33,588 nucleotides of DNA from Chthoniobacterales bacterium (lineage in GTDB: Bacteria; Verrucomicrobiota; Verrucomicrobiia; Chthoniobacterales; UBA6821). Where the stretch lies: the NCBI GenBank assembly GCA_026461395.1, contig JAPJNA010000030.1, positions 1 to 33,588 of the forward strand, given 5' to 3'. A program made the translations under genes and the position numbers. The notes under the pieces are model-generated. The model had not been told where the DNA came from. It made no database searches and saw only the letters and a program-made list of their open reading frames with translations. Each line of letters opens with the position of its first letter. Position 1 is the stretch's first letter. This document shows, piece by piece, positions 673 to 33,588 of this stretch.

Positions 673-1423
673 TTTCGTGGGAACGCCCTTCGATGAAATC
701 CGTAATCACTGGGTCCGTCGAGGAGTGAAGATTCGCAAGTGAGCCGTCGAAATGAATGCGTCCCTCACGGAGAAGTGCTACCCGGTCGGCAATATAATTG
801 GTACTGATCATGTCGTGGGTCACGACGATAGAAGTCACCTTGAGCTGGGATTGCATGCGCCTGATGAGCTTATTGATCGTGTCCGAAACAATGGGATCTA
901 GGCCCGCCGTCGGCTCGTCATAGAGAATGCAGGCGGGCTCGGTGATAATAGCGCGGGCAAGAGCGGCGCGCTTGCGCATGCCTCCACTGAGATTGGAGGG
1001 CATCTTCTGATCCTGCCCCTCCAGAGAGACGAGCTCCAGTGATCTAGCAACCTTCTCCCTGACAGTTTTTTCACTCCGTTCCCCGCGTTCACGAAGGGGA
1101 AAAGCTACATTCTCAAAAACCGTCATCGAGTCGAAGAGTGCTCCATCCTGAAAAAGCATCCCGATCTTCCGACGGATTGGCTCGAGCTGACGCTCATTAA
1201 GATGAGCGATTTCCTCACCATCAATCTTAATGGATCCCGAGAGTGGGGGGATCAATCCGATAAGGTGTCTGAGGAAAACACTCTTTCCTCCGCCGCTTTG
1301 ACCCAAAAGCACGATGGTCTCACCACGGGGAATGTCGAGATTCACACCGCGCAGAATCTCCTGTCCGGAGAAGCTCTGGCGCAGATCGCGGACCTCAATA
1401 AGGTTCTTGGCTGGGGAAGTCAT
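665..1423 (-). CDS. mlaF: MlaF-type ABC transporter ATP-binding protein
   Basis: This is the cytoplasmic ATPase of a phospholipid-transport ABC system with MlaE and MlaD, about 252 residues from the chosen start. Walker A is GQSGGGKS (residues 41-48), the ABC signature is LSGGM (145-149) and Walker B is CILYDE (165-170), followed by the D-loop AGLD. The track ORF is 78 codons longer, but that extension is antisense-like read-through of mlaE. The start MTSPAKNL is preceded by a strong GGAGGG sequence 7 nt upstream and overlaps the mlaE stop as TGATG. That overlap implies translational coupling. The C-terminus (HEID, stop) lies inside the octamer repeat at 641-672. ATP hydrolysis is inferred from intact motifs. 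Confidence 0.93.
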   Translation of the reverse strand: MTSPAKNLIEVRDLRQSFSGQEILRGVNLDIPRGETIVLLGQSGGGKSVFLRHLIGLIPPLSGSIKIDGEEIAHLNERQLEPIRRKIGMLFQDGALFDSMTVFENVAFPLRERGERSEKTVREKVARSLELVSLEGQDQKMPSNLSGGMRKRAALARAIITEPACILYDEPTAGLDPIVSDTINKLIRRMQSQLKVTSIVVTHDMISTNYIADRVALLREGRIHFDGSLANLHSSTDPVITDFIEGRSHEID

Positions 1424-2214
1424 CAGAACTTCCCTCCGGCTGGAAAGATAATGTTCAGCGCCATCGTCAGGAAGAAGTTGATCATCAGGATAGTCAGGGA
1501 ACTGATGACCACGGCCTCGGTCGTGGAGCGTCCCACGCCGACGGCACCGTTGCTGGTCGTGAGTCCCTGCTGGCATCCAACAAAGACAACGATCAAGGCG
1601 AACACGAATCCCTTGGTCAGCGCCATTACCATGTCCTTGGTGTGTGTGTAGAACCACATGTGCTGCATAAAGAAGACACTGTTCACGTTCAGGATCCGAG
1701 TGGCGACGTAATAGCTAGCTGTCAGGGCGAAGAAAATACATTCTCCCACGAGCAGGGGCATAGAAATCATCATCGCCACGGCACGGGGCACCACGAGGTA
1801 ATCGACCGGATTAACCGCCAGTGCACGGAGGGCGTCGATCTGCTCGGTAACCTTCATCGTGCCGATCTCCGCGCAGATGGCGGCTCCAACGCGACCAGCC
1901 ACCATGAGTCCTGTAAGGACAGGGCCGAGTTCGCGGCAGAGGGCGATGGATACCACAGGCCCGACTGCCGTACTCATGTTCAGGGCATTAAACTGGAAAA
2001 AGATCTGTGCGGTGAACACCGCGCCCGTGAAAATCCCCGTGATAATGACTACAGCCTGGGAACCGAATCCAATCTCGACGATCTGGTTCAGAACCAGACG
2101 CCAGCGGATCCTTCCAAGGAAAATTGACGAGAAGGTCTCGCCGGTCAGGAAAACGATCTGCCCCAGATAGAGGCTAAAGGCCCGTGTCAGCGGGAAAGAA
2201 TACGGAAACTTCAT
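1423..2214 (-). CDS. mlaE: MlaE-type ABC transporter permease
   Basis: This 263-residue integral membrane protein is normal in length for the MlaE/YrbE permease family. Family features include FFQFNALNMSTAVGPVV, then CRELGPVLTGLMVAGRVGAAICAE and the segment EQIDALRALAVNPVDYLVVPR. Several hydrophobic helices follow, ending with INFFLTMALNIIF. The protein forms the transmembrane dimer of the lipid-transport complex with MlaF and the MlaD ring. It lies 25 bp after rimO, and its stop codon overlaps the mlaF start. The direction of lipid flow cannot be decided from sequence. No MlaA, MlaB or MlaC gene is visible here. Confidence 0.92.
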   Translation of the reverse strand: MKFPYSFPLTRAFSLYLGQIVFLTGETFSSIFLGRIRWRLVLNQIVEIGFGSQAVVIITGIFTGAVFTAQIFFQFNALNMSTAVGPVVSIALCRELGPVLTGLMVAGRVGAAICAEIGTMKVTEQIDALRALAVNPVDYLVVPRAVAMMISMPLLVGECIFFALTASYYVATRILNVNSVFFMQHMWFYTHTKDMVMALTKGFVFALIVVFVGCQQGLTTSNGAVGVGRSTTEAVVISSLTILMINFFLTMALNIIFPAGGKF

Positions 2215-15199: not shown

Positions 15200-15904
15200 C
15201 TACAATCCCGAAGCAGCTGCGGTGTCGGTGAGTAAAAGCGCGTTAGCCTGGCTGATACTTCCGGCAGGGATCGAATGATCAGCTGCCTTGAGTTTCACAA
15301 TCATCGGGATCTTGGCTGCTCCCGTGGCGAGCCACATGATCTGGCGCGAGCGATTAATCATCGGGTAGGTCAGGGTCATGCGCCGTCGGTTCTGGTAGAG
15401 ATTCACTGGATCGGTTAGCGCCACATCGCGGTCAGTGACCTCCAGAACCGGATCGTTCGGAGTCAATGAGGCCGTGTGTCCGTCGGGTCCAAGGCCAAGA
15501 TGAGCCATATCGAGAATCGGGGGATTCCCACAAATCTTCTGAAGGACTTTCTCGTACTCCTTAGCTCCCTCGACGGGATCCTCAGCATTCACCGGCATGG
15601 CGTGGATGTTCTCCTTTGGGATCGGAGCATTCCCCAAGAGCGACTCGTGAAGGTGTGTCAGATTGCGGTCAGGATCACCCTCGGGTGCGATGCGTTCGTC
15701 GATCTGGAAGACATGGACCTGTGACCAAGGCACCTCTTCAGATGCAAGATCCCTCAGCATGGCCCAAGGAGTCTTGCCGCCACTAACGGCAAGAGTGAAA
15801 ACTCCACGAGCAGCCACGGCCTCACGGGAGGCAGCTGCAATTACTCCTGCGGCGGCCTTCGCCACCGCATCATCATCAGCAAGGACCTCGATCTTAAGAG
15901 CCAT
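15200..15904 (-). CDS. pgl: 6-phosphogluconolactonase
   Basis: The enzyme hydrolyses 6-phosphogluconolactone, the second step of the oxidative pentose phosphate pathway. The 234 residues fit the DevB/Pgl family. Typical segments are FTLAVSGGKTPWAML, then VHVFQIDERIAP with a following PDRNLTHL, and LGLGPDGHTASLTPN near the middle. RRRMTLTYPMINRS is also typical. It follows pgi by 21 bp on the same strand, so the two sugar-phosphate genes are probably one unit. The spacer is an 11-bp duplication. Glucose-6-phosphate dehydrogenase is not in the window. Confidence 0.94.
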   Translation of the reverse strand: MALKIEVLADDDAVAKAAAGVIAAASREAVAARGVFTLAVSGGKTPWAMLRDLASEEVPWSQVHVFQIDERIAPEGDPDRNLTHLHESLLGNAPIPKENIHAMPVNAEDPVEGAKEYEKVLQKICGNPPILDMAHLGLGPDGHTASLTPNDPVLEVTDRDVALTDPVNLYQNRRRMTLTYPMINRSRQIMWLATGAAKIPMIVKLKAADHSIPAGSISQANALLLTDTAAASGL

Positions 15905-30708: not shown

Positions 30709-31610
30709 TTTCCCATTCTTCCCCAACGCCGGAAGTTAAAGGAGCGAAGGTTCCATGGACGGAGCCGATCCTTCTCTCGATCTCCCATCTCACTCGTTAC
30801 ACCTACGAGGGAGCGGTGCAGGATAGCTTCAACGAGGCACGCCTGCAGCCGATCACCGACACACTTCAGCAATGCCGGGATTTTCGCTTCACGATCGATC
30901 CGACCTCCTCGGTTCGTGACTATCCCGATTTCTACGACAACTGCGTTCATTACTTCGATGTCCCTCAACCTCATGAATCACTCGAAGTCTTGGCAGAATC
31001 CGAGGTTCAGACCATCACCGAGACGCGAGGCCCCGTTCCCGAAGCGGGACTAAAGAGCCTGGAAGACCCCTCGGTGAGGGAGCAGAACTTCGACTTCCTG
31101 CATGCCTCGGAATTCGTCTCTCTGGAGGCCGATGTCTGGAGAGAAGCAGTTGACGCGCTGCCCGGTGGAGTCAGCAATGTCTGGCAGGACACCGCGACGA
31201 TCGGCGAATATATCCATCGCAACTACAAGTACACCCCGCTTTCCACCAACGTGAACACCCGCGCCATCGAGGTGATCAAGAGGAAGCAGGGCGTCTGTCA
31301 GGACTTTGCCCACCTGATGCTCGGAATCTGCCGGACTCACGGCATTCCCGCCCGCTACGTCAGTGGCTATTTCCTTAACCAGCACAAGCTCCCCGGAGAG
31401 ATCGAGGCCAGCCATGCATGGCTCGAGGTCTTCATCCCCGGCTACGGTTGGAAGGGCTACGATCCGACCCATCGACGAGAGGCTGATACCCGCTATGTGA
31501 AGCTGGCGGTGGGACGTGACTACGGTGACATTCGTCCCGTGGGAGGAACCTTCCGTGGGAAGGGAACGCGCAAGATGGTCGTCGAAGTCTCCGTCCAGCG
31601 GATCTCGTAG
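30705..31610 (+). CDS. Transglutaminase-like cysteine protease/amidotransferase family protein
   Basis: The 301-residue protein has an N-terminal beta-rich domain typical of bacterial transglutaminase-like proteins (LSISHLTRYTYEGAVQDS). A papain-fold core follows. The catalytic triad is visible as C198 in QGVCQDFAH, H237 in ASHAWLEVF and D253 in GYDPTH. It ends with VVEVSVQRIS. No signal peptide is seen, so action in the cytoplasm is likely. It overlaps the alpha-E gene by 4 bp and closes the three-gene set. In such sets the enzyme is predicted to cleave or transfer peptides made by the ATP-grasp partner. Confidence 0.9.
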   Translation: MISHSSPTPEVKGAKVPWTEPILLSISHLTRYTYEGAVQDSFNEARLQPITDTLQQCRDFRFTIDPTSSVRDYPDFYDNCVHYFDVPQPHESLEVLAESEVQTITETRGPVPEAGLKSLEDPSVREQNFDFLHASEFVSLEADVWREAVDALPGGVSNVWQDTATIGEYIHRNYKYTPLSTNVNTRAIEVIKRKQGVCQDFAHLMLGICRTHGIPARYVSGYFLNQHKLPGEIEASHAWLEVFIPGYGWKGYDPTHRREADTRYVKLAVGRDYGDIRPVGGTFRGKGTRKMVVEVSVQRIS

Positions 31611-31642: not shown

Positions 31643-31658
31643 GCGCAGAGGCGCAGAG
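31643..31658 (+). repeat. GCGCAGAG octamer, two exact copies
   Basis: GCGCAGAG occurs twice in tandem, preceded by TCTC and followed by a diverged unit. It matches the arrays at 21035, 22974 and 23200. No GxxExxY gene is next to it. Confidence 0.75.
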
Positions 31659-31857
31659 AACCGAAGAAATCAGGAAACTAACCCTCGGCCCTCTTCCTAA
31701 TCCAGCGGGCTTTTCACCGCGATTACCGGCTAGTTGAGCACATGGGAGAGCAAGCTTTGTGAAAATCTGGCCCACCTCTCATCCCACTGCGCATCGTATT
31801 TAGGCGAACTCTGTGGCTCCTTGGAAATCAACGATTTATCAATCTTTTTCAAGTTAG

Positions 31858-31896
31858 CACATGTGATTGATTATTGCAGTATAATGACATGTCATT
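31858..31896 (+). promoter_or_regulatory. Candidate promoter with overlapping palindromic operator of the sulfatase gene
   Basis: TATAAT (31880-31885) is a perfect -10 box but no -35 match lies at the right distance. The 14-bp perfect palindrome AATGACATGTCATT (31883-31896) overlaps it. A second CATG palindrome, CACATGTG (31858-31865), is centred 28 bp upstream. This looks like an activator/repressor site pair, by sequence symmetry only. Confidence 0.4.
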
Positions 31897-31941
31897 CTGA
31901 AATACGTTCGGCAAAAATGAAATAAGGCGGAAGAATCACCA

Positions 31942-33582
31942 ATGAAGGCCCTCACGCGACGAGTATTCATCACCACCGCATCCGCGGCAGTATTCATAGC
32001 GGCTTTCGGCAATCGGCTCTTCGCAGAGGAGAAATCAGCCAAGCAACCCAATATCCTGTTTCTTGTCGCGGATGACCTGAGATGGAACAGCACCGGATTC
32101 GGCGGAGATCCGCTGGTACAAACACCGAACCTGGATCGGCTCGGGGCGGCGGGCGTCATATTCAACCGGGCGGCCGTCACCACCTCGATCTGCATGGCCA
32201 GCCGTGCCAGCATGTTAACTGGCCAATGGCTCAGTCGCATGGGCGGTGCGCGGGTCACACCGCAAACCTGGAAGGACACGTGGCCCGCTCAACTTCGGGC
32301 TGCCGGTTACTATGGCGGCCACATCGGCAAGATTCACGTGAGCGGACAGAGCGCTTCCGGCTATGACTTCTGGGCGGGGCGAAATGGCCCCTACCATTGG
32401 CTGAAAGGCAACGGCGCCGAGGGCGGGGGCATTCACAGCATTCAAAAGGACACGGACGAAGCGCTGCGATTCCTGGACAAGCGGCCGAAGGACAAGCCTT
32501 TCTTCCTGCAAGTCGCCTACACTGTGCCACATGCGGAAGACCACGACCCGAAACAATACCTTCCGATGCCACAAGAAGATGCGCTTTACGCCGCTCGCGC
32601 CGTGCCCGTGCCGGAAACTGTGGCCCCTGAATACTGGCTACGGCTGCCGCCGTTTTTCCGTGAGGCTAGGAATGAGAGCCGGGCTCGCTGGACGAAGCGC
32701 TTTGATACGCCGGAGAAATATCAGGAGATGGTCAAAAACTACTACCGCCTCATCAGCGGCATGGACCGCAGCATCGGGACTATTCTCGAGGCCTTGCGCG
32801 CCGGGGGCGTCTCCGACAACACCGTGGTCGTCTTTATCGGTGATAAATGGCTACTTCCTCGGGAACATGGGTTAGCGGACAAATGGTATGCCTATGAGGA
32901 AAGTTTGCGGGTGCCATTGCTTATCTACGATCCGCGGTTGCCGGCAGAAGGTCGCGGGAAGCGTTGTGACAACTGGGTGCTGAATGTGGATATCGCGCCA
33001 ACGTTTTGCGCTATGGCTGGTGTGAAGGCACCCGCCGCAATGCAGGGCTGTGACATCACCCCCCTCCTGCACGGACAGACACCTGCCGCCTGGCGAACGG
33101 ATTTTCTGTATCAGTTTAAATGGTACAGCGAAGTCATCCCGGCATCCGAAGCCGTTTGCAGCAAAGATTGGAAATACATCCGCTGGGTGGGACACCGCAC
33201 CGAGGAGCTCTTCGATCTTCGCAATAATCCCTTGGAAACCCGGGATCTCTCGAAAGATCCGGCACATGCCGCCGACCTCGCCCGCCTGAGAGCCCGGTGT
33301 GACGAGTTGAAGAGGGAAGTGGGCGGCTCGACGCTGCAAGATTTAACCAATATGCCGTATGGCGTGAAGGAAAAAATAAGTGATGCCACCGGAGAATCTC
33401 AGGTTGTTTCTAACGGTCGACTTTGGCGCCGTGTGGAATGCTCAACGCGTTTGAAGAGTACAAGTGACGACCTTTTAGTTGATAATTATGAAGGGTCTTA
33501 TGTAGTTGATGGGGTGCTGATGGGGTATAAGTCCCTAATCAGCAATGAAGAACAGATATTCAAAAGGTGCGCACGTTTCTGA
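31942..33582 (+). CDS. Tat-exported sulfatase with compensated frameshift and suspect C-terminus
   Basis: This type I sulfatase would cleave sulfate esters outside the cytoplasm after export through Tat (TRRVFITTASAAVF signal, about 1-28). Metal-site Asp-Asp lies at residues 44-45 (VADDLRWN). The formylglycine site is C84-M-A-S-R, a CxASR variant of CxPSR. Later LADKWYAYEESLRVPLLIYD is family-typical. Residues 301-307 read DKWLLPR where the family has DNGYFLG. Removing one A at 32845-32847 and adding one G at 32861-32863 restores DNGYFLGEHG. The last about 70 residues are not sulfatase-like and follow an A6 run. A plausible Shine-Dalgarno-like AAGGCGG precedes the ATG. Substrate unknown. Confidence 0.85.
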   Translation: MKALTRRVFITTASAAVFIAAFGNRLFAEEKSAKQPNILFLVADDLRWNSTGFGGDPLVQTPNLDRLGAAGVIFNRAAVTTSICMASRASMLTGQWLSRMGGARVTPQTWKDTWPAQLRAAGYYGGHIGKIHVSGQSASGYDFWAGRNGPYHWLKGNGAEGGGIHSIQKDTDEALRFLDKRPKDKPFFLQVAYTVPHAEDHDPKQYLPMPQEDALYAARAVPVPETVAPEYWLRLPPFFREARNESRARWTKRFDTPEKYQEMVKNYYRLISGMDRSIGTILEALRAGGVSDNTVVVFIGDKWLLPREHGLADKWYAYEESLRVPLLIYDPRLPAEGRGKRCDNWVLNVDIAPTFCAMAGVKAPAAMQGCDITPLLHGQTPAAWRTDFLYQFKWYSEVIPASEAVCSKDWKYIRWVGHRTEELFDLRNNPLETRDLSKDPAHAADLARLRARCDELKREVGGSTLQDLTNMPYGVKEKISDATGESQVVSNGRLWRRVECSTRLKSTSDDLLVDNYEGSYVVDGVLMGYKSLISNEEQIFKRCARF

Positions 33583-33588
33583 GGCCCG

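Follow-up and report, generated by a model that had tools for sequence, protein, structure and literature searches.

Pairs of opposite indels lying a few codons apart, which restore the reading frame but leave a short peptide replaced by an unrelated one, have been described as pCFMs (Biba et al. 2022, PMC8935012). They were described in vertebrates and insects, in less conserved regions. The locus described below has the same architecture: a sulfatase gene carries two compensating frame-breaking indels, and the segment between them matches its orthologs in the other frame only. It differs in that here a bacterial enzyme is hit, in a catalytic motif that hardly varies, which makes loss of function likelier than tolerated novelty.

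A parallel for the amino acid change itself is provided by the human S1 sulfatases. The pair D334/H335 of IDS, equivalent to D301 and residue 302 of the protein studied here, ligates Ca2+ (PMC5472762), and the active site of ARSB comprises D53, D54, C91, R95, K145, H147, H242, D300, N301 and K318 (PMC6272068, PMC3637222). The ARSB variant p.N301K (mucopolysaccharidosis VI) is severely pathogenic, with the precursor below normal and mature enzyme not seen (PMC3637222, PMC6272068). It shares with our case the replacement of Asn by Lys in the D-N metal-site pair, although there a point mutation alters one residue of a lysosomal enzyme, whereas here a double frameshift changes five more. The best solved relative is an alpha-L-rhamnosidase/sulfatase (GH78; PDB 6hr5), which aligns over the whole sulfatase domain (E 1e-80) and has DNGYFLGE where the protein encoded here has DKWLLPRE. 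Verrucomicrobiota are one of the phyla in which integrons, to which the upstream region of the gene bears a likeness, have been reported (PMC8618304).

The frameshift in the metal-site motif

The window, that is, the whole stretch of DNA analysed, is a complete contig (C4) of 33,588 bp from a genome of 2.03 Mb in 80 contigs (G000). The sulfatase gene is its last gene, and the contig stops 6 bp past it, within an IS1595-type element (Table 1). A match to PF00884 at residues 36-361 (151 bits against a cut-off of 25) places the product in the S1 family; PF16347 matches residues 308-457 with 101 bits, and the final ~80 codons of the ORF are not sulfatase-like. Its closest relatives, L033 (66% identity) and L034 (67%), come from metagenome-assembled genomes labelled uncultured Opitutae bacterium and Proteobacteria bacterium, respectively.

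A sequence-only reading of this DNA had noted that the family motif DNGYFLGEHG appears here as DKWLLPREHG, and both letters and coordinates proved correct: the ORF contains VVVFIGDKWLLPREHGLADKWYAYEE, and the protein reads GDKWLLPREHGLADKW around the motif (GDKWLLPREHG), the same region in L033 and L034 being DNGYFLGEHGLADKW, with exactly DNGYFLGEHG in both. All 40 best relatives have DNG at the first three positions. The codon of D301 (GAT, 32842-32844) is retained; the two indel sites beyond it, 16 bases apart and of opposite sign, scramble six amino acids. That deleting one A and adding one G would restore the motif, as the same reading claimed, also holds, since NGYFLG, the +1-frame reading of codons 302-307, agrees with both relatives at 6/6 positions. 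Its description of the sites as homopolymers is right as to position, but neither is a long run: both comprise three bases, and L033 has no run at all at the second site, where it reads GGCGAG.

The uniqueness of this match was assessed by scanning every 6-codon stretch in the +1 and -1 frames for the BLOSUM gain relative to aligned L033 and L034. Codons 302-307 gain +43, against a gene mean of about -27 (s.d. about 11), and the only other positive scores in the gene belong to overlapping neighbours of the same codons. The equivalent scan of 26 other ORFs of the window against the 92%-identical genome G004 (18,896 tests) gave nothing above +5, so that, of about 19,800 such frame tests over the whole contig, the motif alone stands out. 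This unique 6/6 match in the shifted frame shows that, measured against the family, the segment carries a compensated frameshift and has not simply diverged by chance.

Table 1. Features of the sulfatase locus (positions in the window)
Feature	Coordinates	Strand	Details
Integron-type leader (attI-like), directly upstream of the sulfatase	31643..31915	+	273 bp; 89% identical copy on contig C46
Degenerate remnant of IntI C-terminus	31700..31753	-	LLSHVLN*PVIAVKSPLD vs IYTHVLNKPGIAVRSPLD
GTTCGGC, probable attI crossover core just before the sulfatase	31906..31912	+	read in the sequence
S1-type sulfatase ORF containing the altered motif	31942..33582	+	546 aa
Metal ligands D44-D45, intact	32071..32076	+	sequence and homolog alignment
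Formylglycine signature C84-M-A-S-R88 (C-x-[PA]-S-R), intact	32191..32205	+	sequence and homologous stretches
Altered metal-site segment	32842..32872	+	D301 kept; N302G303Y304F305L306G307 of relatives replaced by KWLLPR; frame regained at E308
AAA, first indel	32845..32847	+	one base more than aligned relatives (3 A vs 2 in L033 and L034)
GGG, second, opposite indel	32861..32863	+	one base less than L034 (3 G vs 4)
Open, mostly non-homologous ORF tail	33340..33492	+	51 codons; GC 0.43; GC3 0.37 vs 0.68 in the gene; low pLDDT
Left end of IS1595-type element	33493..33588	+	transposase start 33545 (MKNRYSKGAHVSEA); common to nine contig ends of the genome

Loss of the metal ligand

The N-terminal D-D pair (D44, D45) and the Asp of the D-[NHQ] pair (D301) are all kept, whereas the second metal ligand of the latter pair, which should be Asn, His or Gln, is Lys (K302). 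At positions 302 and 303, occupied by K and W in the window protein, N and G are found in L033, L034 and another 38 homologs without exception (40/40). Across a wider range of 73 homologous stretches, position 302 is occupied by N (56), H (11), Q (4) or S (2), and by K in none. The assignment of this residue as the metal-site Asn, made in the sequence-only reading, agrees with the role of H335 of IDS as a Ca2+ ligand (PMC5472762) and with the placement of ARSB N301 in the active site (PMC6272068); the evidence thus supports residue 302 as the Asn/His/Gln ligand position of S1 sulfatases. The remaining active-site residues, D44, D45, C84, R88, K130, H132, H197, D301 and K314, are all present, and D301 and K314 are invariant across the 40 aligned homologs.

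AlphaFold predicts that the sulfatase fold is kept. Its confidence falls slightly, and at the loop only, with scores of 88 and 89 in the 10-residue blocks there compared with 95 and 94 in intact L034, such models being insensitive to small changes. As encoded, the enzyme has probably lost sulfate-ester hydrolysis, or retains it in badly impaired form. Missing maturation machinery does not explain the loss, because the genome encodes a formylglycine-generating enzyme (PF03781, 289 bits, G000:C77:25061-26014) near its one other sulfatase above the Pfam cut-off. Domain-based pipelines would annotate the present allele as an intact sulfatase, as it scores more than 120 bits over the Pfam cut-off despite the broken metal site. 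Frame-compensated losses of this type evade pseudogene detection, and a simple scan of the shifted frames against orthologs catches them.

Genomic context

The sequence-only reading was silent on the surroundings of the gene: downstream the contig ends inside an IS1595-type element, and upstream lies a leader of integron type that contains a decayed integrase tail. Synteny with G004 stops at 31606, just past a transglutaminase gene, and the leader follows. Copies related to it, some of them partial, are found in G002, G004 and other genomes of the genus. The IntI remnant gives tblastn E values of only 0.004-0.03 on its own; stronger matches come from the copies in C46 (6e-4) and G004:C32 (1e-8), and a complete IntI above the family cut-off is present in three genomes of the genus. 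In the C46 and G002 copies the place of the sulfatase is taken by cassette-like genes, in G002 at the same chromosomal position; on C46, attC-like hairpins (z -4.6 and -7.7) lie between the genes behind the leader. Judging from this arrangement, the sulfatase would occupy the first-cassette position of a decayed integron-type array. No attC-like fold was found between the sulfatase and the IS element; the attC behind the gene may have been cut off by the IS element and the contig end.

Besides the one in the window, dispersed leaders were seen at G000:C46:1661-1933, on C1, C7 and C8 of G002 and on C32 of G004. Most of the integrase gene is absent from them and the attI-like end is kept, in some cases with the integrase C-terminal tail; at least two precede cassette-like genes. 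The occurrence of several integrase-less leaders within one genome looks unusual.

At the opposite end, the last 29-30 residues of the sulfatase ORF are derived from the IS element, a complete copy of which contains PF12762. The first ~15 codons of the preceding tail resemble the C-terminus of L034. The frame is open from the expected C-terminus to the IS element. This high-copy element breaks the assembly here and at eight other contig ends of the genome, and it also occurs in G001, G007, G009 and G015 of the same genus.

No ortholog of the sulfatase was found in the same-genus genomes searched and no second copy in viral contigs; its plasmid relatives all fall below 60% identity. The gene was probably acquired horizontally, at a mobile locus. 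The combination of IS and integron context signifies instability and is no proof of a dead gene.

Origin of the double indel

Is the altered motif a property of the organism or of its assembly? The sequence-only reading had offered two assembly indels and a true loss of the Asn as alternatives without choosing between them; both are coherent, but the evidence gathered here favours the real loss. One end of each of nine contigs of the genome consists of the same 95-98 bases, the left end of the IS element. When the distance to the branch point is counted so as to include the bases shared with another contig before the IS element, six of these nine contigs end exactly 99 bases past it and the other three at 96-98 bases, possibly because their best partner is absent from the bin. 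We read the 99-base overlap as the signature of short reads assembled through a de Bruijn graph with k=99. Short reads seldom carry indels in 3-base runs. Furthermore, both indels fit in a single 99-mer, which the reads must have contained, and over 600 bp separate the site from the end of the contig. Comparison with the 92%-identical G004 over the 29,576 bp of other coding sequence in the contig revealed no 1-nt indels; with the 95% upper bound derived from this zero count, about 2e-4 pairs of opposite sign within 20 nt would be expected in the sulfatase through independent error. Taken together, the k=99 signature, the shortness of the runs and the absence of any other 1-nt coding indel indirectly favour the view that the double indel belongs to the organism's own DNA. 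Two artefactual indels, in an organism with the ordinary DNGYFLGEHG motif, would be in keeping with the otherwise well conserved catalytic domain and the perfect old-frame peptide, as well as with the position of the gene near the contig end, but in the face of these observations we regard it as rather unlikely.

The explanation that we consider likely is a real and recent compensated double frameshift that removed a metal ligand and thereby probably inactivated the sulfatase, leaving a decaying allele at a mobile locus. One base would have been added in the A run and one lost in the G run 16 bases on, the frame being regained with six residues of the active-site loop exchanged, including N302 for Lys and the invariant G303 for Trp. 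The protein would presumably still be made and largely folded, its metal binding lost or badly impaired. The gene would then stand as an inactivated allele in decay, behind a leader retaining only an integrase tail, with the 3' end of the gene running into an IS1595-type element. Could the altered loop instead be functional, its frame kept by selection in a working sulfatase whose metal site is changed or missing, or in a pseudoenzyme? The frame compensation and full-length ORF, the intactness of the other catalytic residues and the low pairwise dN/dS are in line with this idea. Yet Lys is found at position 302 in none of the homologous stretches, the invariant Gly is gone as well, the corresponding substitution in ARSB causes severe disease (PMC3637222), and the low dN/dS, given how recent the event is, says nothing about the new form, all of which make such a function improbable. 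Still less probable is that the KWLLPR loop itself has been selected, whether in a protein that still works, its active site altered or metal-independent, or in a pseudoenzyme confined to binding, although a working loop would be of real enzymological interest. Production of the usual motif by translational recoding, with ribosomes shifting by +1 at AAA and back at GGG, seems hardly credible at all: the shifted frame is indeed intact between the two sites, but neither site has a standard slippery heptamer, two opposite shifts within 16 nt would each have to be efficient, and the arrangement is absent from the two closest relatives. The frameshifted sulfatase is most likely a new case of a known kind, an instance of ordinary gene decay.

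We had also considered that the contig might be generally prone to indels, and rejected this on account of the zero 1-nt coding indels relative to G004. The length differences from G004 at 15630/15636, 23799 and 25474 are in frame in sum or lie near gene starts.

Age and mechanism

The rest of the sulfatase gene appears under purifying selection in pairwise comparisons, at dN/dS of 0.07-0.14 with dS near saturation. In the near-invariant columns (73), beyond the two shifted positions, the window protein departs at I167, Y193 and N429; the residues at 167 and 193 are shared with L033 and L034, so that D429N alone is particular to it, and no further disabling change was seen in the catalytic domain. 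The perfect preservation of the old-frame peptide, along with the conservation of the rest of the gene, marks the frameshift as recent. Against the likely explanation given above it may be noted that the nearest homolog of the allele is merely about 67% identical, and no closely related copy of the frameshifted allele was found in the genomes searched.

In a drifting pseudogene an exact second compensation would be improbable, which makes a single complex event, or short-lived selection on the downstream part of the protein, the more plausible course. A search within the gene for a nearby template that could have produced both indels in one step returned only a 7-mer, as expected by chance. 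More generally, compensation by chance is unlikely without selection, and this points to a single complex mutation, to selection on the product or to an artefact.

Elsewhere on the contig, an ABC-transporter gene apparently overlaps an MlaE permease gene (665-1657 and 1423-2214, minus strand). The overlap stems from a GTG start placed too early in the ABC-transporter gene, as only from residue 61 onwards is its product homologous to G004.
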